Shown: positions 14,962-25,141 of the stretch, piece after piece
Layout: the number at the start of each line of letters is the position of its first letter
Numbering within the stretch: the stretch's first letter is position 1
Translations under genes and position numbers: made by a program
Source of the DNA: a virus
Virus record (IMG/VR): IMGVR_UViG_3300020469_000240
Span: 1 to 25,309 of that record
Reading direction: 5' to 3' (one strand)
DNA: 25,309 nt
The notes under the pieces: model-generated
The model's database searches: none
What the model was told of the DNA's origin: nothing
What the model saw: the letters and a program-made list of their open reading frames with translations, nothing else

Positions 14962-15122
14962 TCTTCGTCAATGTAAAGACCGTTATCTGTAAGTGTTATA
15001 CTAACTTCTGTATCTTCATACCAGTTGAGTTCATTGACATATGACTCAGGAACTGCTATAATGTATTCATTGGTTACATTATCGACTCTTATGACTGTTT
15101 GGAATTTATCTGATTTTTTCAC
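14958..15122 (-). CDS. Small AbrB/SpoVT-like protein, 54 aa (GTG start)
   Basis: The frame is open from a stop at 15168 and contains no ATG; the best start is the GTG at 15122, giving KKSDKFQTVIRVDN and then NEYIIAVPESYVNELNWYED. The pattern P-[ED]-x2-[VL]-x-[ED]-L-x-W-x-[ED]-[GD]-x-[ED]-[VL] resembles the swapped-hairpin AbrB/MazE DNA-binding fold, although homology is uncertain at this length. The stop overlaps the next ATG (ATGA). It lies downstream of a consensus promoter at 15394-15422 with a long untranslated stretch between. An alternative non-ATG start (CTG or ATA) further upstream is possible. Confidence 0.6.
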   Translation of the reverse strand: MKKSDKFQTVIRVDNVTNEYIIAVPESYVNELNWYEDTEVSITLTDNGLYIDEE

Positions 15123-16872: not shown

Positions 16873-17220
16873 TTAAGCAACCTGTAAGGTTTGCTCATCT
16901 AATAATATCATTCCATCCCAGAACATTAGTGTTTCTTTGTTCTTACTTAAGAACCACACATAGTTTTTCTGGAATACTCTAACACCGCCCATTACCTCTT
17001 CTAAAATAGCATTTAGTCTAGATTTTGTGGTTACTGTTTCATAACCACAAGAGGACAATTTGAGAGCATTTGTTGTATGATCTAGCGTTGCGATGTTGTG
17101 ACCATGTAATAAAACTTGACTGCAATTTGTTGACTCATTGTAAACAACTGTAGTGTTAGACCCTGCCCAGTTACCCTTATTGCTAAGAGCGAAGTTCATT
17201 TGTCTTTCAAGTTTTCTCAT
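16873..17220 (-). CDS. Conserved phage hypothetical protein, 115 aa
   Basis: It begins MRKLERQMNFALSNKGNWAG, then VVYN..TNCSQVLLHGHNIATLDH, LSSCGYETVTTKSRLNAILEE and a C-terminal VFQKNYVWFL strand. The layout (basic N-terminus, YLHGH-like motif, T.TTKSRLNAIL motif) is one I associate with small proteins of cyanophages and marine cyanobacteria. No function is known to me. It has its own promoter at 17255-17282 and a 35-40-nt leader without a Shine-Dalgarno. Confidence 0.75.
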   Translation of the reverse strand: MRKLERQMNFALSNKGNWAGSNTTVVYNESTNCSQVLLHGHNIATLDHTTNALKLSSCGYETVTTKSRLNAILEEVMGGVRVFQKNYVWFLSKNKETLMFWDGMILLDEQTLQVA

Positions 17221-17254: not shown

Positions 17255-17282
17255 ATTATACACGATTTAGGGGGCATGTAAA
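17255..17282 (-). promoter_or_regulatory. Promoter with overlapping inverted repeat, 115-aa gene
   Basis: The minus strand has TTTACA (17282-17277), 16 nt and TATAAT (17260-17255). A 6-bp inverted repeat with one wobble, TACATG (17280-17275) / CGTGTA (17264-17259), brackets CCCCCTAAAT and overlaps the -10 box by two bases. A second CCCCTAA lies 20-30 nt further upstream. Confidence 0.6.
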
Positions 17283-17292
17283 CCACTTAGGG

Positions 17293-17312
17293 GACAGTTT
17301 GTCTACTGGCAC
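17293..17312 (-). repeat. Dispersed hairpin repeat, copy A (degenerate)
   Basis: A variant of the GTGCCAGT-6 nt-ACTGGCAC element. On the minus strand GTGCCAGT is intact, and the partner arm ACTGTCC has diverged, with GGACA and TGTCC now able to pair further out. The TAG stop of the 60-aa gene lies inside it. Confidence 0.6.
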
Positions 17313-17485
17313 ATGTCCTCAAATCTTCGCTGTGCTTCATCTGATATAATAGGCAAGTAACCTAATTCAGAATTTTGATCTAATGTATTTAATTGATCAT
17401 CAGTTAATGAGTTTTTAATTCTATATTCTTCCCATACTTCATCATATATGGTCTCTAATATGCTTTCATTGTGTATACATGACAT
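17303..17485 (-). CDS. Hypothetical protein, 60 aa
   Basis: Acidic and helical: ETIYDEVWEEYRIKNSLTDD, then LNTLDQNSELGYLPIISDEA and RRFEDMCQ. A strong GGAGGT Shine-Dalgarno 9 nt before the ATG sits in the last codons of the 93-aa gene upstream (2-nt gap). Its last codons and stop are formed by a copy of the dispersed hairpin repeat. Family not recognised. Confidence 0.72.
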   Translation of the reverse strand: MSCIHNESILETIYDEVWEEYRIKNSLTDDQLNTLDQNSELGYLPIISDEAQRRFEDMCQ

Positions 17486-17487
17486 AG

Positions 17488-17769
17488 CTAATTAACCTCC
17501 GTTGGTGTTAGTTTATTAAGAGTATTCTCAACACTAAGTGAAGCATATTGTGGGATACCTCGCTTATTATCTGTTACAATATAATCGAAATCGTTGATTC
17601 TAGTTAATATATCATCACCCATAATATGTCTGCTAACTATTCTTTTGTTCATAGTCTCACCTTTAAATGATAATATTCTCAACACATTATCAGGGTCAAT
17701 GTTATTATTCCAATCCTTAATAGGATAGAAATCTAATACTATTGTTCCGTTTTTACAAGTGATTTGCAT
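17488..17769 (-). CDS. Hypothetical protein, 93 aa
   Basis: Alternating strands (ITCKNGTIVLDFYPIKDW) with a central RIVSRHIMGDDILTRINDFD segment and a polar C-terminus. No motif that I recognise. The ATG follows CACTAATTATT, one of the Shine-Dalgarno-less AT-rich leaders. It couples to the 60-aa gene by providing its ribosome site. Confidence 0.7.
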   Translation of the reverse strand: MQITCKNGTIVLDFYPIKDWNNNIDPDNVLRILSFKGETMNKRIVSRHIMGDDILTRINDFDYIVTDNKRGIPQYASLSVENTLNKLTPTEVN

Positions 17770-17800
17770 AATAATTAGTGAATGAAGTTTGCTGTTGTGA

Positions 17801-18082
17801 TTAATATAAATTTATTGGATTTGCGTAACGCCCTGCTGGATGTGGGTTTGCTTTAGTATAACCAAATGAACTAAAATACTCATCTAACATGTTAGAATCT
17901 AGATCAGGATTCAACTCAAATCCTTTACCAAATAGATCAACTTGCCCGATGTGAGTAACGCCCCACTCTTGAATCTCATCTACAAATGATTGAAAGTCTT
18001 CGCATAGTTCAGCGATGTCTTCAAACTTCTCAACTTCTTTGATTCTGTCGATTAGTCTTTGAGTGAGTTCTTTGTTTGGCAT
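17801..18082 (-). CDS. Hypothetical protein, 93 aa
   Basis: The N-terminal half is a charged helical pair (LTQRLIDRIKEVEKFEDIAE, then LCEDFQSFVDEIQEW), followed by a loop-rich C-terminal half ending NPHPAGRYANPINLY. AAAGGA lies 11 nt before the ATG. It has its own promoter at 18110-18115 and a hairpin repeat upstream. It is probably first in the operon with the 93-aa and 60-aa genes. Function unknown. Confidence 0.75.
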   Translation of the reverse strand: MPNKELTQRLIDRIKEVEKFEDIAELCEDFQSFVDEIQEWGVTHIGQVDLFGKGFELNPDLDSNMLDEYFSSFGYTKANPHPAGRYANPINLY

Positions 18083-18109
18083 AAATGTTTTTTTCCTTTG
18101 TATACTACT

Positions 18110-18145
18110 ATTATAACCAGAAGAGCACCCTATTTGGGGTTCTGG
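18110..18145 (-). promoter_or_regulatory. -10 box with adjacent inverted repeat, 93-aa gene
   Basis: TATAAT (18115-18110, minus) is preceded one base away by an inverted repeat CCAGAA (18145-18140) / TTCTGG (18122-18117) whose interior contains ACCC/GGGT pairs. No good -35 is visible. The predicted leader is about 20 nt with an AAAGGA ribosome site. Confidence 0.55.
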
Positions 18146-18146
18146 T

Positions 18147-18168
18147 GTGCCAGTTTGTCCACTGGCAC
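18147..18168 (-). repeat. Dispersed hairpin repeat, copy B (perfect)
   Basis: GTGCCAGT, six bases, ACTGGCAC: a perfect 8-bp stem located 10 nt after the stop of the 104-aa gene. It is the best copy and serves as the reference for the five-member family. Confidence 0.8.
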
Positions 18169-18178
18169 TAGCTAAATG

Positions 18179-18493
18179 TTAGATTCCTTGAGACATTACA
18201 AGATCTTTAAGATAATCTTCAGCACAATCTTGTGCCTCGTAGATATCATAAAACTGACCTAATTGTACACTGTCACCAGTTAAACAACCGTTGTAAGTAT
18301 AGTTCATTGTTTGAACTACAAAACGATCATTACCGTAATGGTAGATACTTAGATCTGGATCTAAGTTGTTATCTCGTGTATACTTATCAAACATATTTGA
18401 AGAGAATGTTTTAGTATAGTCAAAAGATAGATAGTCATCAGTCAAATCGATTGACTGAGAGAAAAGAGATTTAGATGTAATTGTTTTATTCAT
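18179..18493 (-). CDS. Hypothetical protein, 104 aa (possibly leaderless)
   Basis: The sequence reads MNKTITSKSLFSQSIDLTDD, then YNGCLTGDSVQLGQFYDIYEA and AEDYLKDLV near the C-terminus; tyrosine- and aspartate-rich. A GTG at 18508 would extend it by five residues, but that extension overlaps the TATAAT box, so I start at the ATG. The ATG lies 7 nt after the -10 box, where transcription should begin, so the mRNA may be leaderless. Family not recognised. Confidence 0.7.
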   Translation of the reverse strand: MNKTITSKSLFSQSIDLTDDYLSFDYTKTFSSNMFDKYTRDNNLDPDLSIYHYGNDRFVVQTMNYTYNGCLTGDSVQLGQFYDIYEAQDCAEDYLKDLVMSQGI

Positions 18494-18499
18494 ATCTCT

Positions 18500-18538
18500 A
18501 TTATACACACAAAAGGGGTCACTTTGGGGGTTTTGTGT
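18500..18538 (-). promoter_or_regulatory. -10 box with adjacent inverted repeat, 104-aa gene
   Basis: TATAAT (18505-18500, minus) is preceded one base away by a perfect 8-bp inverted repeat ACACAAAA (18538-18531) / TTTTGTGT (18514-18507) with a 16-nt C-rich loop. The repeat touches the hairpin copy C on its other side. Confidence 0.6.
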
Positions 18539-18560
18539 GCCAGTTTGTCAACTGGTTGCC
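18537..18560 (-). repeat. Dispersed hairpin repeat, copy C
   Basis: Plus strand GTGCCAGTTTGTCAACTGG followed by a diverged arm; CCAGTT/AACTGG (18540-18555) still forms a perfect 6-bp stem with a 4-nt loop. The TGA stop of the 51-aa gene (18548-18550) lies inside it. Confidence 0.75.
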
Positions 18561-18703
18561 ACCTCATCTAACTTTATAATTAGTGGTTCTAATTCATCCA
18601 TCTCACTATCACTTAAGTCTATAACCATTTGTTCATAACACCACAACAATAAGTCTGCTTGATGCTTATTAACTGTGATAGATTGTGCAACAGTTTGTGT
18701 CAT
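18548..18703 (-). CDS. Small hypothetical protein, 51 aa
   Basis: MTQTVAQSITVNKHQADLLL is followed by a helical acidic part ending KLDEVATS. The final codons ACC AGT TGA are part of hairpin repeat copy C, so the repeat supplies the stop. The gene sits 35 nt after the 48-aa gene. A helix-turn-helix-like length but no recognised motif. Confidence 0.6.
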   Translation of the reverse strand: MTQTVAQSITVNKHQADLLLWCYEQMVIDLSDSEMDELEPLIIKLDEVATS

Positions 18704-18738
18704 TGAAGGGGTTGTAATTAGAGTTGAGTTAGTGTTAT

Positions 18739-18885
18739 TTAGATAAGGAATTCAAAGACTAAGTAATCCAAACTCACATTGAGTTCTTTACATTTAGCTT
18801 CGTAATGTGCTAGACTTTCCTTTGTAGTTTCTAGATCAAAGTGTCTAGTTTGGATGATAAACTCATCAGGTAATTTGCTGTTCAT
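18739..18885 (-). CDS. Small hypothetical protein, 48 aa
   Basis: MNSKLPDEFIIQTRHFDLET is followed by a helix (TKESLAHYEAKCKELN) and a hydrophobic end (YLVFEFLI). The start overlaps the stop of the 83-aa gene as ATGA, which supports it as a real coupled gene. Family not recognised. Confidence 0.62.
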   Translation of the reverse strand: MNSKLPDEFIIQTRHFDLETTKESLAHYEAKCKELNVSLDYLVFEFLI

Positions 18886-19133
18886 TGTTCCCAATGAAGA
18901 GCATTAAATTGAGCGATTGATAGATAGTCAGGGTCATGCAATCTGCCCAAGTGATTAACATCTTCAACACCATCTTCATCATAACAAATGAATACAAATT
19001 CCTCCATAAAATGTTCAACAGATGCAATATGTTCTCTTTCAATACATCTTAATATGTCCCCTATTTGATCATCATCCATATCACATTCATCAATACAAAA
19101 TGCAATGTTTTTCTCTAATTGTGTTGTTTTCAT
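18882..19133 (-). CDS. Hypothetical protein, 83 aa
   Basis: Strongly acidic: CIDECDMDDDQIGDILRCIE, then EHFMEEFVFICYDEDGVEDV. I prefer the ATG at 19133, 2 nt after the upstream stop and about 10 nt after GGAG, to the ATG at 19148, which overlaps the upstream gene. The charge and size would fit a DNA-mimic or protein-binding inhibitor, but that is only a thought. Stop overlaps the next ATG. Confidence 0.7.
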   Translation of the reverse strand: MKTTQLEKNIAFCIDECDMDDDQIGDILRCIEREHIASVEHFMEEFVFICYDEDGVEDVNHLGRLHDPDYLSIAQFNALHWEQ

Positions 19134-19135
19134 TG

Positions 19136-19402
19136 TTAGTGACTCCATGTGAATTGTGGTTGATCAAGTATAATATCTCTTACTCTTTCTCTATCTAAAC
19201 TATCACCTCCACCCCAACTATATGTTACATTGAACCATAGTCCGTTATTACTTTCTGCTTCTTGTATCCTTTTACGATATACTTTAAAGGCATCTAATAT
19301 GTCATCCTTAGTTAAACCTTTTATAGGGTAAATCGTATCATCATGTTCACCATAGAATGACCAAACATATTCAACGAAAGAGTTTAAATTAGTGACGCTC
19401 AT
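19136..19402 (-). CDS. Hypothetical protein, 88 aa
   Basis: NSFVEYVWSFYGEHDDTIYP (about 7-26), then a helical part LTKDDILDAFKVYRKRIQEA and a C-terminal WFNVTYSWGGGDSLDRERVR motif. It has the size and look of a conserved cyanophage orphan, but no function is known to me. It lies 3 nt after the stop of the upstream gene. Confidence 0.72.
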   Translation of the reverse strand: MSVTNLNSFVEYVWSFYGEHDDTIYPIKGLTKDDILDAFKVYRKRIQEAESNNGLWFNVTYSWGGGDSLDRERVRDIILDQPQFTWSH

Positions 19403-19405
19403 AGA

Positions 19406-19558
19406 TTAATAGTTGTGTAAAGTACGGAATGGTTTGTAACACTTAGCATAATCAGATTGTGTTTGATAAGTGTTAATTAAGGAACTTAATCCTTGAGTTT
19501 GGTTTCTATCCTCAGTTGCTAACTTAGCAAAGTAGGATTGTAATTCATCAGTGTTCAT
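19406..19558 (-). CDS. Small hypothetical protein, 50 aa
   Basis: MNTDELQSYFAKLATEDRNQ, then LSSLINTYQTQSDYAKCYKP. I use the ATG at 19558; a TTG at 19624 would add 22 residues of Asn/Thr-rich sequence and overlap the upstream gene. No Shine-Dalgarno before either start. Mostly helical; family not recognised. Confidence 0.6.
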   Translation of the reverse strand: MNTDELQSYFAKLATEDRNQTQGLSSLINTYQTQSDYAKCYKPFRTLHNY

Positions 19559-19610
19559 GTTAATAAAATAAACGAAGTTTGTAGAATTAGTGTTAATGAG
19601 AGTAGATGAA

Positions 19611-19982
19611 TCATTGATTAGCAAGAATAAGAAGTTTACCTAGTAAGAGTGAATTAAAGCGACAAGTATCGTCATCTTTATATTCTTTTTTGATCTCATT
19701 AAAGACCAATTCTATTAACTTTTCGTATTCTTCAACTTGTAAATCATTGTGATCATTTAAGATCTCAGCACCCCACGCAAATTGCATTTCTTGAGTTTGT
19801 GTTTCAACTGGTTGCATAAGTGCCTCAATTTGTATACTATCATTATAATGGTTATCAGGTGCATACTCAACCCCTCTTGTGCCAGTTTGTCCACTGGTTT
19901 CTTTGAACCAAAATCCATCTGCTGTCATTTCCCACCCATTCGCAATACATTCATCATAGGTCATTTCTTTACATTTAACCAT
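19611..19982 (-). CDS. Hypothetical protein, 123 aa, containing a hairpin-repeat insertion
   Basis: The frame starts MVKCKEMTYDECIANGWEMT with GGGGA about 9 nt before this ATG; an ATG-less upstream extension to 20039 looks random. The middle ETSGQTGTRG is encoded by a copy of the dispersed hairpin repeat, in frame. The second half (EEYEKLIELVFNEIKKEYKD) is helical. It overlaps the upstream gene by 8 nt. Function unknown. Confidence 0.7.
   Translation of the reverse strand: MVKCKEMTYDECIANGWEMTADGFWFKETSGQTGTRGVEYAPDNHYNDSIQIEALMQPVETQTQEMQFAWGAEILNDHNDLQVEEYEKLIELVFNEIKKEYKDDDTCRFNSLLLGKLLILANQ
19879..19897 (-). repeat. Dispersed hairpin repeat, copy D (inside a gene)
   Basis: Nineteen bases identical to the left part of copy B (GTGCCAGTTTGTCCACTGG), including both inner arms. 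Here it lies inside the 123-aa reading frame and encodes T-S-G-Q-T-G-T. No frame is broken. Confidence 0.75.
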
Positions 19983-20328
19983 AGATACATTCCCCAAAAA
20001 TAGTAGTTTGTATGATCCAATCTGCCATATCACTATCACAAACTGTTTGATCGTTATCTATAATATACTGGTACACTAAATGTCTATTTGTAACATGCAA
20101 TCCTATCTCTCCTTCACACTTAGCTATCTTAACTATTGCCTTCTCAACATCATCTTTATTGATAGTATGTGATTTTTCTCCTTCACAATCATGGAAAGTT
20201 ACACTTTTATAATCATCAGCAATATCCATTTCATCTGCCCAATAGTTACAACCATAACCCGCCATTTCTAATATACATTCAAACTCTTCATCTGTAAGAG
20301 TGTAATCAATTGTTAGTTTTTGAGTCAT
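19975..20328 (-). CDS. Conserved phage hypothetical protein, 117 aa
   Basis: MTQKLTIDYTLTDEEFECIL begins an N-terminal strand-helix unit; YGCNYWADEMDI (about 25-36) and CEGEIGLHVTNRHLVYQYII (about 71-90) are distinctive, the second in a style I associate with cyanophage orphans. GGAGAGG stands 4 nt before the ATG. The ATG overlaps the stop of the 58-aa gene (ATGA). Function unknown. Confidence 0.75.
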   Translation of the reverse strand: MTQKLTIDYTLTDEEFECILEMAGYGCNYWADEMDIADDYKSVTFHDCEGEKSHTINKDDVEKAIVKIAKCEGEIGLHVTNRHLVYQYIIDNDQTVCDSDMADWIIQTTIFGECIYG

Positions 20329-20501
20329 ACTTCCTCTCCAAGTTTGTTGAATTGTTTGTTAATTAGTGGTACAATAAGTATACCGTTATCTTTTAATTTG
20401 CACCTCATACTGTAGAACCATTCATTATTTGCATGATGTTCTTCAAATGTTAATCTGTAATCTTTCATGTAAGATTGTGACCAGTTATGTATAAAGTTCA
20501 T
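20325..20501 (-). CDS. Small hypothetical protein, 58 aa
   Basis: MNFIHNWSQSYMKDYRLTFE, then an aromatic stretch (HHANNEWFYSMRCKLKDNG) and ILIVPLINKQFNKLGEEV. The last codons carry the GGAGAGG ribosome site of the 117-aa gene, and the stop overlaps its ATG. It begins 3 nt after the upstream stop. Not recognised. Confidence 0.65.
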   Translation of the reverse strand: MNFIHNWSQSYMKDYRLTFEEHHANNEWFYSMRCKLKDNGILIVPLINKQFNKLGEEV

Positions 20502-20504
20502 TGA

Positions 20505-20735
20505 TTAAAGACCGTCCTTAATTGTTATTGAGTTTGCATGATTCCACAAAATGTTTAAACATGCCATGTGAATATCTAAGAGGTTTGACATATTAACTCC
20601 CTCCCAATCTTCCCAATCTGATACATAATCTTCCATGTCAAAATCACCAGTTCCATCTAACTTTTGTGGACATGATTTAAAATCGTGGTTCTCATCTACC
20701 CAGAAGATTCTTCCAAAAGATTTACTACAAAACAT
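20505..20735 (-). CDS. Hypothetical protein, 76 aa
   Basis: Start set at the ATG 8 nt after a strong AAGGAGG; a longer frame to 20819 would overlap the upstream gene by 73 nt. MFCSKSFGRIFWVDENHDFK, an acidic MEDYVSDWEDWEGVN stretch and a helical C-terminus (LLDIHMACLNILWNH). Tryptophan-rich and acidic. Function unknown. Confidence 0.72.
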   Translation of the reverse strand: MFCSKSFGRIFWVDENHDFKSCPQKLDGTGDFDMEDYVSDWEDWEGVNMSNLLDIHMACLNILWNHANSITIKDGL

Positions 20736-20746
20736 GATAATCCTCC

Positions 20747-20947
20747 TTAATAGTTTACAATAATGTCCCAGACTTTGATATAGTTTTGCAACCAATCTAT
20801 CTGGTATGGTGTTAAACAATCTATCTCAGCATACTGATGACCATATAAAATATCATCTGCACTCATAAACTCTAAGTTATACTTAGTGCAGAAGTCTTCC
20901 AATACATCTGATAATAAATCTAGTTGATTAGTAATACCTGATGACAT
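20747..20947 (-). CDS. Hypothetical protein, 66 aa
   Basis: The start is fixed by AAGGAGG 9 nt upstream and by lying 2 nt after the previous stop; the in-frame ATG at 20986 is inside the upstream gene. MSSGITNQLDLLSDVLEDFC precedes ILYGHQYAEIDCLTPYQIDW and a hydrophobic end. Helical; family not recognised. Both this and the next gene have unusually strong ribosome sites. Confidence 0.72.
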   Translation of the reverse strand: MSSGITNQLDLLSDVLEDFCTKYNLEFMSADDILYGHQYAEIDCLTPYQIDWLQNYIKVWDIIVNY

Positions 20948-20949
20948 GA

Positions 20950-21357
20950 TTAACCCCTCCTTAAATATAACCAACCACCTGCCCAATCACAGTTCTCATA
21001 TACATATTCACGCTGATTTATGATCCTTAAATCATAACGAACATTCTTAAGTGGTGATTTCCATGATGCAGGTTTATGAACTTCGCCAGTATTCTTATTA
21101 ACGAAACAGTGAACACTTGTATCTACATATTCACCATCACGCCATTCTTGTTGATTTAGTTTATAATATTTACGACCTTCTCTAATAACAAATTGTGTCA
21201 ACTTCTCAGTTCCATCATTTATTCTCTTCAATTGCTTAGTAGCATAGTCTGAAGTAAATGTTTCTAAAGATTTTACAGTATATCTTTTATACTGTGCATT
21301 TAAGCGGTCTTTGAGTTCAACTGTCCAATCGGACACTAACTCTGGAACTGTTTTCAT
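20950..21357 (-). CDS. Conserved phage hypothetical protein, 135 aa
   Basis: A charged N-terminal helical part (ELVSDWTVELKDRLNAQYKR) is followed by YYKLNQQEWRDGEYVDTSVH, then CFVNKNTGEVHKPASWKSPL and a C-terminal YENCDWAGGWLYLRRG. The NTGEV-KPASWKSP and CDWAGGWLY motifs have the look of a protein family repeated across cyanophages. Function unknown. AAGGTAA lies 5 nt before the ATG; the promoter is inside the end of the methyltransferase gene. Confidence 0.78.
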   Translation of the reverse strand: MKTVPELVSDWTVELKDRLNAQYKRYTVKSLETFTSDYATKQLKRINDGTEKLTQFVIREGRKYYKLNQQEWRDGEYVDTSVHCFVNKNTGEVHKPASWKSPLKNVRYDLRIINQREYVYENCDWAGGWLYLRRG

Positions 21358-21384
21358 AAGTTACCTTGTTTTGTTTACTCTTCT

Positions 21385-21390
21385 ATTATA
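21385..21390 (-). promoter_or_regulatory. -10 box at the end of the methyltransferase gene
   Basis: TATAAT on the minus strand contains the TAA stop codon of the methyltransferase gene. It is preceded by two direct copies of ATGGACT 21 nt apart. A start near 21378 gives a leader of about 20 nt for the 135-aa gene with AAGG before the ATG. No clear -35. Confidence 0.5.
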
Positions 21391-22360
21391 GTCCATCTAG
21401 AGCATCTGTCAGTCCATTGTGTACCACTTTGTTAGCTGGCACACGCTCATCAATCAATGTGCTATAATCTTCATGCAACTCACATCCAATATAATTACGC
21501 TTGAGATCCCTTGCTACCATTGCAGTTGTGCCACTTCCCATGAACGGATCTAACACAATATCACCTTCACTTGATCCTGCTTTGATACATGGTATTATTA
21601 AATCAGGTGGAAATACTGCAAAGTGAGCACCTTTAAAAGGTTTATTAGTTATATTCCAGACAGATCGTTTATTCTTTGTTGGATATGATTTTGTAAGACC
21701 CGAATGTGGTTGTAATCCTGTTCCTTCGTTGTGATACTTTCCTTTTGATCTATCTCTGGTTCCCCAATCTTTTGCTGGTTCTTTGATACTTTCATTGTCA
21801 TAATAGTACTTCTTGTTTTTACTTAATAGGAACACATATTCATGAGCTTTTGTACATCTATCTCTCACACTTTCAGGCATTGGATTAGGTTTATGCCATA
21901 TAATATCTTGTCTTAAATACCATCCATCTGCTCTTAATGCAAATGCTAACATCCAAGGAATACCAATCAAATCTTTCTCTTTATATCCTTTTAGTTTATT
22001 ACCTCGTCTTGCACATTTGTCTGGTAAATCTTGTTTAGTCTTAGATACAGTTTGTTTAACTAACCCTTGACCTTTTCCAGGTCTATAGTTATAATAACTA
22101 TCACCCATATTCAACCACAATGTACCATCATCTGATAGACAATCTCTAACACCTCTAAACACTTCTACAAGGTTTTGAATATATTCTTCTGGTGAATCTT
22201 CTTGCCCTATTTGATTAGATTCACCACCATAATCACGCAACCCGTAGTAAGGTGGGGATGTAACACACATACGAGGTTTATCACATATACCAGTGGTAAT
22301 ATGACTCCTTAATGTAGTAAGTGTGTGGCGACAATCACCATATAATATTGTATCTCTCAT
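21386..22360 (-). CDS. DNA methyltransferase, N4-cytosine/N6-adenine type (beta class order)
   Basis: 324 aa from the ATG at 22360. TSPPYYG (34-40) is catalytic motif IV and comes before DPFMGSGTT (271-279), the SAM-binding motif I; this order defines the beta class of N6_N4_Mtase (PF01555). The intervening part (about 190-240) is likely to hold target recognition. The SPPY form is common in N4-cytosine and some N6-adenine enzymes, so the target base is not decided. It modifies phage or host DNA using SAM, probably to evade restriction or regulate. The start overlaps the stop of the 50-aa gene as TGATG. A TTG one codon upstream is possible. The C-terminal VPANKVVHN is encoded by a hairpin-repeat copy. 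Confidence 0.9.
   Translation of the reverse strand: MRDTILYGDCRHTLTTLRSHITTGICDKPRMCVTSPPYYGLRDYGGESNQIGQEDSPEEYIQNLVEVFRGVRDCLSDDGTLWLNMGDSYYNYRPGKGQGLVKQTVSKTKQDLPDKCARRGNKLKGYKEKDLIGIPWMLAFALRADGWYLRQDIIWHKPNPMPESVRDRCTKAHEYVFLLSKNKKYYYDNESIKEPAKDWGTRDRSKGKYHNEGTGLQPHSGLTKSYPTKNKRSVWNITNKPFKGAHFAVFPPDLIIPCIKAGSSEGDIVLDPFMGSGTTAMVARDLKRNYIGCELHEDYSTLIDERVPANKVVHNGLTDALDGL
21421..21442 (-). repeat. Dispersed hairpin repeat, copy E (inside the methyltransferase gene)
   Basis: On the minus strand GTGTGCCA and TGGTACAC pair with one G-U wobble, keeping the stem although the sequence has drifted from copy B. It encodes V-P-A-N-K-V-V-H near the C-terminus of the methyltransferase. The preserved pairing suggests selection on the RNA, but only one such change is present. 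Confidence 0.6.
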
Positions 22361-22512
22361 CAATTTAAATTGACTCTTTTAATGTCAACATCACCATACT
22401 GTTCAATAACAGTTCTCCTAGCACTATCATAATTAGTGGCAGGAACTTCAACATCAATTAGACCCATATCGTTACGAAAAAATGTAACTGTGGCAGTGCG
22501 ATAAGCAGACAT
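22360..22512 (-). CDS. Small hypothetical protein, 50 aa (third of a related trio)
   Basis: MSAYRTATVTFFRNDMGLID, then VEVPATNYDSARRTVIEQYG and an IKRV end. It shares the strand-strand-helix-strand plan of the next two genes, with weaker identity. The stop overlaps the methyltransferase ATG (TGATG), which gives translational coupling. The ATG follows TTTAATTATT. Function unknown. Confidence 0.7.
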   Translation of the reverse strand: MSAYRTATVTFFRNDMGLIDVEVPATNYDSARRTVIEQYGDVDIKRVNLN

Positions 22513-22925: not shown

Positions 22926-24170
22926 TTAATATGCGAATGAGTGAGCAGTGAGACCATCTTCAAAGATTAATTGTATTAACTTTTGAAGACGATTGCGAGT
23001 AGCAGCAGATGATTTACTATTAACTGGAACAGTTACAACTCCATGTTTTTTACGATAAAGTTGTGATTCACCTGCTGGTATTACATTATTTTGAATGTTG
23101 TTATAATCATATTTATGAAGACGGATAACCCTTCCAATCGTTTGTGCCATTTCAATAATAGGTAGATTTCTCAACAATACTGTATGAGTTAAACCTCTAA
23201 CATTGATACCTTCAGATAATATTGAATAATGAAATAGTATAAACTTTTTGTTATCATCATCACCCCATTTCTGAAGAGTATCAAAGAATACTTGACGATT
23301 AACTTTCTTTCTATTAACATATGCACCATGCTTTGATGTAATATGCATAATATCATATCCTCTTCTTTTTAGAGTTGATATAATATTAGTTTTAGATAGC
23401 ATGTTCCATAATATTGTAGTATTAGGGGCAGCAACTAACACTTTAGGTGATAGCTCTGACTTAACATTCTTAATGATATCTAACACCATCTTACAATCAA
23501 TCTCTGGTGCATTATGTTTTGTTCTTGTTACATCTGTCTCATGTACTATAAGTTTAGGTGATAATATCACACCATTCTTAACAAGTTCGGGTGCTGGTAC
23601 ACTAATTAAAGTATTACCATAAACCTTAGTATTATTCATACCTCTTTCATTCATACCTCTTGAATATTTTGGTGTAGCAGTAAAGAAATAACTATTATTT
23701 GGTGTAGCAGTAGATAAACCTACAAAGTGATTCTTATTAGTTGAATTGTGTGCTTCATCACAGTATAATACATCAATATCAACCATAGAATCAACTATCC
23801 TATGTAATGAATGATATGTTGTAAATATAAACTTATTATGATGTGGATTAATACTATTCCAATGTGTTATCTCTGCAACTTTAGTAGTTTGTTCATACTT
23901 AGTTTCACCACTATGTACATGTAATACTTTGATACTATTAGTTATTTGTGATATAAAATCATTACACAATTGTTGTGCTAATAATATACGAGGTGCAACA
24001 ATTACAAATGTAAGTTGCTTACCATAAGAATTTGATAGTCTATCTTTACAATCTTCAATCATTATTTGTGTTTTACCACCACCAGTAGGAACATAAATGC
24101 ACCCCTTATTTGATAGTTTCATAGCATCAATAGCACGAGATTGATGTGGTCTTAATAATGTAGTTGTCAA
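22926..24170 (-). CDS. SF2 DEAH-box helicase/ATPase (TTG start)
   Basis: 414 aa. LRPHQSRAIDAM (6-17) is the Q-like motif, PTGGGKT (28-34) Walker A, CDEAH (137-141) the DEAH box, FTATP (163-167) motif III, SEGINV (319-324) motif V and QTIGRVIRLHK (343-353) motif VI. This is the type III/UvsW-like SF2 fold that couples ATP hydrolysis to unwinding or translocation on nucleic acid. An in-frame TGA lies five codons upstream and the first ATG (residue 17) would remove the N-terminal motif, so the start is probably TTG at 24170. It is the first gene of an operon with three small genes and the methyltransferase. It could be a recombination/repair helicase or part of a DNA-modification function. Confidence 0.88.
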   Translation of the reverse strand: MTTTLLRPHQSRAIDAMKLSNKGCIYVPTGGGKTQIMIEDCKDRLSNSYGKQLTFVIVAPRILLAQQLCNDFISQITNSIKVLHVHSGETKYEQTTKVAEITHWNSINPHHNKFIFTTYHSLHRIVDSMVDIDVLYCDEAHNSTNKNHFVGLSTATPNNSYFFTATPKYSRGMNERGMNNTKVYGNTLISVPAPELVKNGVILSPKLIVHETDVTRTKHNAPEIDCKMVLDIIKNVKSELSPKVLVAAPNTTILWNMLSKTNIISTLKRRGYDIMHITSKHGAYVNRKKVNRQVFFDTLQKWGDDDNKKFILFHYSILSEGINVRGLTHTVLLRNLPIIEMAQTIGRVIRLHKYDYNNIQNNVIPAGESQLYRKKHGVVTVPVNSKSSAATRNRLQKLIQLIFEDGLTAHSFAY

Positions 24171-24193: not shown

Positions 24194-24202
24194 ATTATAG
24201 CA
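24194..24202 (-). promoter_or_regulatory. Extended -10 promoter for the helicase operon
   Basis: Minus strand TGCTATAAT, an extended -10 box, begins a few bases after the T-tract of the upstream terminator. A start near 24187 gives a leader of about 17 nt before the TTG codon. It is almost identical in layout to the junction at 24950-24983. Confidence 0.65.
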
Positions 24203-24204
24203 TG

Positions 24205-24228
24205 AAAAAAGACCCCAAAAGAGGTCTT
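24205..24228 (-). terminator. Intrinsic terminator after the 58-aa gene
   Basis: On the minus strand AAGACC pairs with GGTCTT around a short loop, followed by TTTTTT: a standard rho-independent terminator. It closes the ArdA-like operon; the helicase promoter follows at once. Confidence 0.75.
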
Positions 24229-24254
24229 GTGTAGCTTTTCTAACTGTCACAGTA

Positions 24255-24431
24255 TTAATATCCTTCTCCATAAATTTCTGACATTAACTCATAATACATT
24301 TTCTTTAGTTTAGATGCTGTAATACTCTTTGCTTTGTTGTTAATCTCCTCCTCAGTTTTATCATCAAAGTTCTTAGCGATCTGTTTGATCTCATTGATGT
24401 AGTAACGACAGTCTGATCTAGTTATTGTCAT
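24255..24431 (-). CDS. Small hypothetical protein, 58 aa
   Basis: MTITRSDCRYYINEIKQIAK, then a charged helix and ITASKLKKMYYELMSEIYGE. The ATG at 24431 is chosen because GGAGG stands 9 nt before it and it overlaps the ArdA-like stop (TAATG). Helical. It could be a partner of the ArdA-like protein through coupled translation, but no family is recognised. Confidence 0.7.
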   Translation of the reverse strand: MTITRSDCRYYINEIKQIAKNFDDKTEEEINNKAKSITASKLKKMYYELMSEIYGEGY

Positions 24432-24865
24432 TATCTTATCCTCCAAAAATCATATCCAAAGTTAGGATCATCAATCTTTTCAAAATCAAATCGTAGTGCT
24501 GAATCCCATGTTCTCTCGTAATCTATTACTACCCATGATGGAATCTCATGGTCAATTAGTTCACGATCATCAATAAATTGCTCTACTGATTCATAGTTTC
24601 CCTCATACATTTCATCAGCACCTTGAATATATTCCAGACCAGTATCAGCAACATATCTATCAACTACATCCTTAGGATCATCAGAGAATATGTTATTAAC
24701 TACATCAAGATAGTCCTCAACATATTCTATTTTATCTTCACCATAAGTATCAACGAAATCAATAAGATCATCAAGTTCATAACTATATTCTGATAGTTCT
24801 TCTATCTTTTCAACAACTTCTTTGCTGAAAACTTCTTTATAATTTGATGATAAAGTCACTGGCAT
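24431..24865 (-). CDS. Antirestriction ArdA-like acidic protein
   Basis: 144 aa. ADEMYEGNYESVEQFIDDREL, about residues 90-110, then IPSWVVIDYERTWDSALRFDF resemble the C-terminal motif of ArdA proteins (F-x-E-x-Y-x-G-x-F/Y-x-S-x2-D/E and P..L..Y.D...), DNA mimics that inhibit type I restriction enzymes. The rest is very acidic (DDLIDFVDTYGEDKIEYVED), as expected of a DNA mimic. ArdA proper is longer (about 165 aa). I start at 24865 because its leader (GCTATTTTATTATTATTATC) matches that of another gene here; an ATG at 24934 would add 23 unlikely residues. Moderate certainty. Confidence 0.6.
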   Translation of the reverse strand: MPVTLSSNYKEVFSKEVVEKIEELSEYSYELDDLIDFVDTYGEDKIEYVEDYLDVVNNIFSDDPKDVVDRYVADTGLEYIQGADEMYEGNYESVEQFIDDRELIDHEIPSWVVIDYERTWDSALRFDFEKIDDPNFGYDFWRIR

Positions 24866-24894
24866 GATAATAATAATAAAATAGCTAGCGGATG

Positions 24895-24930
24895 TTAGTT
24901 CTTTCTTCGGTTGCGAACCGAGAGGCACAT
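24895..24930 (-). CDS. Possible 11-codon leader peptide
   Basis: A tiny frame M-C-L-S-V-R-N-R-R-K-N with GAGGAG 4 nt before its ATG, inside the leader of the ArdA-like gene. It crosses a tight hairpin. It may be a leader peptide controlling the downstream gene, or a chance frame. Confidence 0.3.
   Translation of the reverse strand: MCLSVRNRRKN
24907..24921 (-). promoter_or_regulatory. Tight hairpin in the ArdA-like gene leader
   Basis: Minus strand TCGGTT, CGC, AACCGA: a 6-bp stem with a 3-nt loop (15 bases). It lies between the promoter at 24950 and the ATG at 24865 and could affect translation or stability. Confidence 0.5.
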
Positions 24931-24949
24931 CCATCTCCTCGTTATATTC

Positions 24950-24958
24950 ATTATAGCA
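24950..24958 (-). promoter_or_regulatory. Extended -10 promoter for the ArdA-like operon
   Basis: Minus strand TGCTATAAT, directly after the T-tract of the preceding terminator. The start near 24943 gives a leader of about 78 nt that holds a ribosome site, a hairpin and a small frame. Confidence 0.65.
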
Positions 24959-24960
24959 AT

Positions 24961-24983
24961 AAAAAACCCCTTGTTCAGGGGTT
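24961..24983 (-). terminator. Intrinsic terminator after the 44-aa gene
   Basis: On the minus strand AACCCC, a 7-nt loop and GGGGTT, followed by TTTT: a rho-independent terminator 24 nt after the stop of the 44-aa gene. A second inverted repeat (GACAGT/ACTGTC, 24988-25005) precedes it. Confidence 0.8.
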
Positions 24984-25006
24984 GTGTGACAGTTGTTTGA
25001 CTGTCT

Positions 25007-25141
25007 TTAGAAGAGTAAACCCCATGCTAGAACTATAAAAAATGCCCATGCTAGAAAGTTTCTTTCTTCTATGCTATTAGATTCTGCGTTGATAGCACTA
25101 AGCAATTCAGTCTTAGTGTTTTTCATGCTGAACTTGTTCAT
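25007..25141 (-). CDS. Small membrane peptide, 44 aa
   Basis: MNKFSMKNTKTELLSAINAE, then a C-terminal transmembrane helix (NFLAWAFFIVLAWGLLF). Followed by a strong terminator, which supports a real transcribed gene. The ATG at 25126 (39 aa) is an alternative; neither has a Shine-Dalgarno. Tail-anchored inner-membrane topology is likely. Family not recognised. Confidence 0.6.
   Translation of the reverse strand: MNKFSMKNTKTELLSAINAESNSIEERNFLAWAFFIVLAWGLLF

Follow-up and report, generated by a model that had tools for sequence, protein, structure and literature searches.

The repeated element that we describe here, found in a 25,309-nucleotide (nt) stretch of DNA from an ocean virus (the whole of IMG/VR record IMGVR_UViG_3300020469_000240, positions 1 to 25,309; hereafter the window), is part of a promoter. 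Each copy is described by a 24-bp imperfect dyad, TGTGNCASTT-N4-AASTGNCACA, which would form a putative duplex-DNA site for a dimeric regulator. Judging from sequence comparison, we read the repeats as cyanophage promoters that carry sites resembling CGRE1, an element bound by a host GntR-family protein, and that are shuffled alongside gene cassettes in the manner of the promoter early stem-loops (PeSLs) of RB49-type phages; we put the probability of this reading at about two in three. The virus would then probably borrow a host regulator to turn its genes on.

Dyads at a fixed distance from a -10 box

The window comes from a T4-like cyanomyovirus, with a methylase, a helicase and small genes that match P-RSM4, P-SSM2, P-SSM4, P-HM1 and single-cell marine viruses. 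Across its dyad-bearing part the minus strand is the gene strand, and it is the functional orientation used throughout. A preliminary description had listed five hairpin-like copies within 17293-21442. A search for the palindrome GTGCCAGT-N6-ACTGGCAC with at most 3 mismatches recovered all five, the first of them at 17291-17312, where 0.04 were expected and none of 100 shuffled sequences reached five. The copies at 18147 and 19879 do share 19 identical bases, with one difference inside that stretch in the copy at 18537, and none of the five original copies lies among the structural genes (window 1-12.7 kb), as had been reported. Five proved too few for the family: the degenerate form GTGNCAST-N6-ASTGNCAC picked out two members on the minus strand that had been overlooked (24250-24229 and 25007-24986), for a total of seven dyads in the window (Table 1).

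These dyads stand at or near the 3' end of the preceding gene, among small genes without known function that lie beside the methylase and helicase, on the 'ORFanage' side of such genomes. Not all of them are intergenic, as the copy at 21421 falls in methylase codons and the copy at 19879 in an open reading frame (ORF) of 142 amino acids (aa). Because dyad and -10 box there lie inside codons (21385-21442 at the methylase end and 19842-19900 in the middle of the 142-aa frame), promoter and coding sequence would be jointly constrained.

All seven window dyads are followed on the gene strand, 29-31 nt downstream, by an exact TATAAT, giving each module a sigma70-type promoter. The same geometry was evident where loci were chosen by the dyad alone: in IMG/VR, 26 of the 31 exact TATAATs found within 95 nt downstream sit 29-32 nt away, and in P-RSM4 a TATAAT lies at 29-30 nt in 9 of 10 cases. 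The combined unit of dyad and TATAAT is present in at least 120 IMG/VR stretches. Among 264 distinct instances, collected by a search that itself demanded a spacing of 28-33 nt, the distance was 30 nt in 150, 31 nt in 68 and 29 nt in 30. Outside the dyad of about 24 bp, the conserved sequence consists of TATAAT and its surroundings at the fixed 30 nt. Because a start-like ATA occurs in these instances at a constant distance past TATAAT, the centre of the dyad would fall at about -53 from the start. The -35 box is poor in most cases, with three or fewer of six matches to TTGACA in 69% of 211 promoters; five or six matches at 16-18 nt were present in 9.5%, versus 0.9% in shuffles.

We then considered whether the two arms of the dyad behave as a stem, using 211 instances that were collected without a pairing condition at positions 4/19 and 7/16. 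A Watson-Crick pair was present at positions 7/16 in 62 of the 211, where independence would give 102.7 (Fisher p=7e-9, a deficit of pairs; this p-value is optimistic owing to related sequences in the set, and the same pattern was seen in 173 distinct 22-mers). Positions 4/19 were near independence, with 118 paired and 110.5 expected. Between the half-sites, CAGT on one side tends to go with CACT on the other. Because stem pairing is not maintained, we interpret the arms as two half-sites of a dimeric DNA-binding protein on duplex DNA, not as an RNA or cruciform stem. RNA folding relative to shuffles gave a z of -3.6 for the 18147 copy and of -0.9 to -2.3 for the other four original copies, which is suggestive for the perfect copy alone. 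No dyad is followed by a T-run on the gene strand, and the only copy flagged as a terminator, at 19879, was flagged on the opposite strand. An RNA hairpin or terminator was therefore ruled out, on the covariation together with the missing U-tract.

The same results bear on the proposal, made in the preliminary description, of a mobile hairpin spread by transposition in the manner of repetitive extragenic palindromic (REP) elements or miniature inverted-repeat transposable elements (MITEs). Its dispersal was borne out, in that related phages carry several copies at non-orthologous positions and that genes which keep the dyad have acquired new neighbours. The mobile hairpin was not: conservation does not extend beyond the dyad and its promoter elements, whose fixed distance also holds at loci chosen by the dyad alone, and there is no wider homology. 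Furthermore, the stem is not conserved, pairing being rarer than expected at positions 7/16 and no different from chance at 4/19, and the same dyad is found ahead of host small RNA (sRNA) genes. We consider a REP- or MITE-like origin extremely improbable.

Table 1. Positions of the dyads, their -10 boxes and the terminator-like hairpins in the window
Feature	Position	Strand	Sequence	Context
Dyad 1	17291..17312	-	GTGCCAGTAGACAAACTGTCCC	Overlaps the end of a 60-aa ORF (17303-17485), upstream of a 115-aa ORF (16873-17220)
-10 box of dyad 1	17255..17260	-	TATAAT	30 nt past dyad
Dyad 2	18147..18168	-	GTGCCAGTGGACAAACTGGCAC	Perfect 8+8 bp; between a 109-aa ORF (18179-18508) and a 93-aa ORF (17801-18082)
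-10 box of dyad 2	18110..18115	-	TATAAT	31 nt past dyad
Dyad 3	18537..18558	-	CAACCAGTTGACAAACTGGCAC	Overlaps the end of a 51-aa ORF (18548-18703), upstream of the 109-aa ORF
-10 box of dyad 3	18500..18505	-	TATAAT	31 nt past dyad
Dyad 4	19879..19900	-	AAACCAGTGGACAAACTGGCAC	Within a continuous 142-aa ORF (19611-20039), about 60 nt ahead of an internal ATG at 19818
-10 box of dyad 4	19842..19847	-	TATAAT	31 nt past dyad
Dyad 5	21421..21442	-	GTGCCAGCTAACAAAGTGGTAC	Final codons of a dam-type methylase ORF (21386-22363), upstream of a 135-aa ORF (20950-21357)
-10 box of dyad 5	21385..21390	-	TATAAT	30 nt past dyad; overlaps the methylase stop codon
Dyad 6	24229..24250	-	GTGACAGTTAGAAAAGCTACAC	Directly beyond a 63-aa ORF (24255-24446), upstream of the helicase ORF (22926-24170)
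Terminator-like hairpin (intrinsic), dyad 6 spacer	24209..24228	-	AAGACCTCTTTTGGGGTCTT, then TTTTC	Between dyad and -10 box
-10 box of dyad 6	24194..24199	-	TATAAT	29 nt past dyad
Dyad 7	24986..25007	-	AAGACAGTCAAACAACTGTCAC	Upstream of a 167-aa ORF (24431-24934)
Terminator-like hairpin (intrinsic), dyad 7 spacer	24965..24983	-	AACCCCTGAACAAGGGGTT, then TTTTA	Between dyad and -10 box
-10 box of dyad 7	24950..24955	-	TATAAT	30 nt past dyad

Two further arrangements of promoters came to light. At five IMG/VR loci (L056, L068, L088, L093 and L116) a TATAAT lies about 30 nt off on both sides of a single dyad, which apparently serves divergent promoters. Within the window, two perfect TTGACA-17-TATAAT promoters with a TG before the -10 box and without a dyad, at 15034-15062 (+) and 15422-15394 (-), constitute a second promoter class in the same small-gene region.

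Distribution among cyanophages and exchange of neighbouring genes

The dyad unit is present in most of the Kyanoviridae cyanophages examined, and such repeats, which the preliminary description had thought unusual in phage genomes, are instead common in cyanomyoviruses. Counting dyads with at most one mismatch, and with a reversed pattern as a control that yielded 0 anywhere, we found 15 in S-CRM01, 10 in P-RSM4, 9 in P-SSM2, 6 each in S-PM2 and P-HM1, 4 each in P-SSM4 and in a 182,180-base virus record, and 1-2 each in Syn9, S-SM1, S-RSM4 and Syn33. The count at this threshold was 0 in S-SM2, T4, RB49, the Pelagibacter phage HTVC008M and S-TIM5, and no convincing dyad-promoter unit was seen in P-SSP7 or in the first 50 kb of PSS2. 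Eleven dyads were located in the P-RSM4 genome, ten of them between 41.4 and 52.0 kb and the other at 129.5 kb, and by its annotation none of the eleven starts more than about 26 nt from where the preceding gene ends. In the freshwater cyanophage S-CRM01 (NC_015569; loci L296-L304) the dyads are mostly symmetric and the -10 boxes are variant (TAGAAT, TATGAT), with the same 30-nt spacing.

Beyond the named phages, relatives of P-RSM4, S-PM2 or S-CRM01 proteins (E<1e-10) are encoded at 89 of the 119 IMG/VR loci that carry the unit, and many of the other loci are short. The dyad and -10 pattern also occurred in 13 stretches of genome_contigs, none titled as a marine picocyanobacterium. Clusters of the unit were noted in contigs filed under Bacteroidota, namely Nonlabens xiamenensis NZ_RMVE01000006.1 (188 kb; L169, L181) and a Flavobacteriales TMED113 metagenome-assembled genome (L171, L176, L180); these look like T4-like cyanophage contigs inside bacterial assemblies.

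Comparison with P-RSM4 revealed that the genes on either side of a dyad differ between relatives. The order in the window is 60-aa ORF, dyad, 115-aa ORF. P-RSM4 also has a dyad after its orthologue of the 60-aa ORF (50502-50684), but the gene beyond that dyad is a different one; its orthologue of the 115-aa ORF (52065) has a dyad in front, again with a different gene upstream. The 93-aa ORF likewise keeps its dyad in P-RSM4 (51217), next to a different upstream neighbour. These three junctions are a small sample, and at other orthologues the dyad has been lost or gained. The dyad junctions would be the expected trace of recombination at promoter modules, as has been proposed for the PeSLs of RB49-type phages, and as with PeSLs there are many copies in a plastic region with shuffled neighbours. 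Because the unit lies where genes end, and its spacer in some cases holds an intrinsic terminator, it may mark cassette boundaries at which neighbours are swapped. In the annotation of P-RSM4 itself, the starts of PRSM4_089 (51239-51586) and PRSM4_081 (49623-49724) lie upstream of, or across, a dyad promoter; probably the annotation begins these genes too far upstream, or the ORF is not genuine.

A location at gene ends right before promoters, with shuffled flanking genes, would also be expected of a classical PeSL, in which the stem-loop terminates the upstream gene and an early promoter beside it serves the gene that follows. A separate terminator is indeed present in some spacers (2 of the 7 window copies), and the folding energy of the spacers is lower than in shuffles. 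Yet the dyad, which has no conserved stem and on the gene strand no U-tract, is not expected to serve as the terminator, and the terminators, where found, are a second, different hairpin. We therefore regard the classical arrangement as improbable.

Host Yfr2 promoters and the candidate regulator

The dyad is not a host-wide repeat, as its exact form was present in just 45 of the 386 cyanobacterial genomes, at 1-2 copies each. We inspected 25 exact-dyad host loci, and one group of them precedes genes of the Rfam family Cyano-1 (RF01701; 6 of 10 loci searched). Cyano-1 is the Yfr2 sRNA family; its sequences here contain GUGUGAGGAG, which is complementary to the Yfr1 motif. The association was examined in reverse by finding Cyano-1 genes with the covariance model alone and then searching upstream of them for the phage dyad. 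In larger cyanobacteria, many Cyano-1 genes have a dyad that ends 39-42 nt before the sRNA start and scores 13-17 of 18, where the best score after shuffling was rarely above 12. In the natural hosts, the picocyanobacteria, a position weight matrix (PWM) of the phage dyads placed its best site 34-40 nt upstream of Cyano-1 in 26 of 30 cases. A stricter PWM put 23 of 29 picocyanobacterial loci, which share descent and so are not independent trials, in one 7-nt window; for 300 column-permuted PWMs the mean was 5.7 and the highest count 12, and none of the 300 reached the real mean score. The host element thus stands at a fixed distance upstream of yfr2, as is expected of CGRE1.

A dyad of the same family, GTGTCAGTTAAKAAASTGTCAC, was also observed in single copy in large cyanobacterial genomes, apparently mostly Nostocales, ahead of a short conserved TGCAAGGAGTGATACCA(C/T)TT (loci L323-L332, L336, L341, L342 and L177:800-870). 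Because no conserved ORF lies downstream of the dyad among the loci examined, the downstream element is probably RNA, and it may well be another small RNA under the same regulator.

The GntR-family protein PMM1637 is reported to bind the CGRE1 element of yfr2 promoters and to mediate the induction of Yfr2 (Lambrecht et al. 2018, described in PMC6778093), and CGRE1 is said to be confined to yfr2 promoters in the MED4 genome (PMC6778093). Because the dyad shares sequence and geometry with the host yfr2 element, PMM1637 is the likeliest regulator. From this resemblance we infer that the dyad is CGRE1 or an extended CGRE1, and that PMM1637 would bind the phage dyads with activation as the effect. 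The distribution of the GntR domain (PF00392) points to a regulator that comes from the host: it matched a single gene in each of the picocyanobacterial genomes G113 and G120, with a 328-aa protein that carries the domain at its N-terminus, and had no match in 17 virus records including the window, which eliminated a GntR protein encoded by these phages. A CRP/NtcA-type site was also dismissed, by reasoning rather than computation, on the unsuitable spacing of its half-sites.

Several observations weigh against a CGRE1-like site read by the host protein. The host yfr2 sites keep the distal half, TGTGACAGTT, and are weak in the proximal half, whereas the phage sites keep the proximal half; the median score is 28.6 for phage sites versus about 9 for the better host sites, and the phage sites are more symmetric. 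Given these differences in half-site and strength, another protein could read the phage sites. In addition, the roughly 10% of promoters with a good -35 box imply that the activator is not needed by all of them, and the range of 0-15 copies per genome implies that the sites are not essential in every cyanomyovirus.

The stronger and more symmetric phage sites could reflect an operator for an unrecognised phage-encoded activator or repressor, with a site shared with, or evolved from, the host GntR element. Such an operator would also suit the arrays in phages and the lack of marine picocyanobacteria among the titles of the genome_contigs stretches, and T4 offers a precedent in its own middle-promoter activator MotA, which is missing from T4-like cyanophages (PMC5780444). 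However, no candidate gene came to light, and the same dyad at the same distance before host Yfr2 genes is left unexplained, so that we think this alternative rather unlikely. The better fit of phage sites to the motif could also mean that they titrate the host GntR protein off yfr2, or let it repress phage genes, with the promoters themselves constitutive; up to 15 sites per genome, multiplied by replication, would exceed the few host sites. But a decoy needs no fixed spacing to the -10 box, and 30±1 nt is held, in the same geometry as at yfr2, where the regulator reportedly mediates induction. We judge a decoy or repressor role quite improbable.

Proposed mechanism and comparison with known systems

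Under our preferred reading, activation through a host GntR site, the dyad some 53 bp upstream of a sigma70-type start (TATAAT, mostly without a good -35 box) would drive the next small-gene cassette, and host PMM1637 at the phage promoters would contact host RNA polymerase as it may at yfr2. The T4-like cyanophages are without MotA, AsiA and T4-like middle promoters (PMC5780444), and transcription of P-HM2 is strongly light dependent (PMC5082946); a site of the GntR/Yfr2 type would fit both. More tentatively, and with less than even confidence, we suggest that T4-like cyanophages have swapped MotA and AsiA for strong host GntR/Yfr2 sites across the small-gene region, so that their transcription would read the light and nitrogen state of the host, with the modules acting as the recombination joints of the ORFanage.

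The reading speaks to two open questions, namely how genes are timed without MotA and AsiA in T4-like cyanophages and why their transcription depends so strongly on light (PMC5082946). A site like that of the light- and nitrogen-responsive Yfr2 sRNAs of the host offers a concrete and testable way to connect the physiology of the host with phage gene expression, in marine viruses of very high abundance. The motif is also a handle for locating the promoters of many uncharacterised small cyanophage genes, and the modules are a candidate mechanism for their shuffling.

Several known systems resemble these modules in part. The intergenic repeats of the halovirus HF2 (PMC8707807) are likewise dispersed viral repeats found to be promoters, but they are archaeal and unrelated in sequence. 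T4 middle promoters, with a MotA box near -30 and AsiA, share the sigma70-type -10 box and an upstream activator site that replaces a good -35 box; here the site is palindromic and lies at about -53, in phages that lack that activator. Cyanophage promoters have been found to use host stress regulators in other cases: gel shift and transcriptomics have demonstrated that cyanophages exploit host PhoB, through the Pho box (PMC10976474), and there are predicted NtcA sites as well (PMC3037559). Those involve other regulators and motifs at particular genes, whereas the dyad is a module repeated throughout the small-gene region.

The PeSLs of the T4-type phages RB49 and phi1 (Arbiol 2010; Comeau 2014; cited in PMC4503421) are alike in being repeated sigma70-type promoter modules at small-gene boundaries in a hypervariable region, some of them with terminators, and in having gene neighbours that vary between relatives; in S-PM2 PeSLs are reported as only sparse (PMC4503421). 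They differ in that the conserved palindrome here is a pair of DNA half-sites at -53 and not a terminator stem, and RB49 is without this dyad. The CGRE1 elements of yfr2 have the same dyad family at the same distance upstream of Cyano-1/Yfr2, with a GntR gene in both picocyanobacterial genomes examined. By comparison, the phage sites, whose identity with CGRE1 is our own deduction, are more symmetric, stronger and multi-copy, and they stand ahead of small protein genes.

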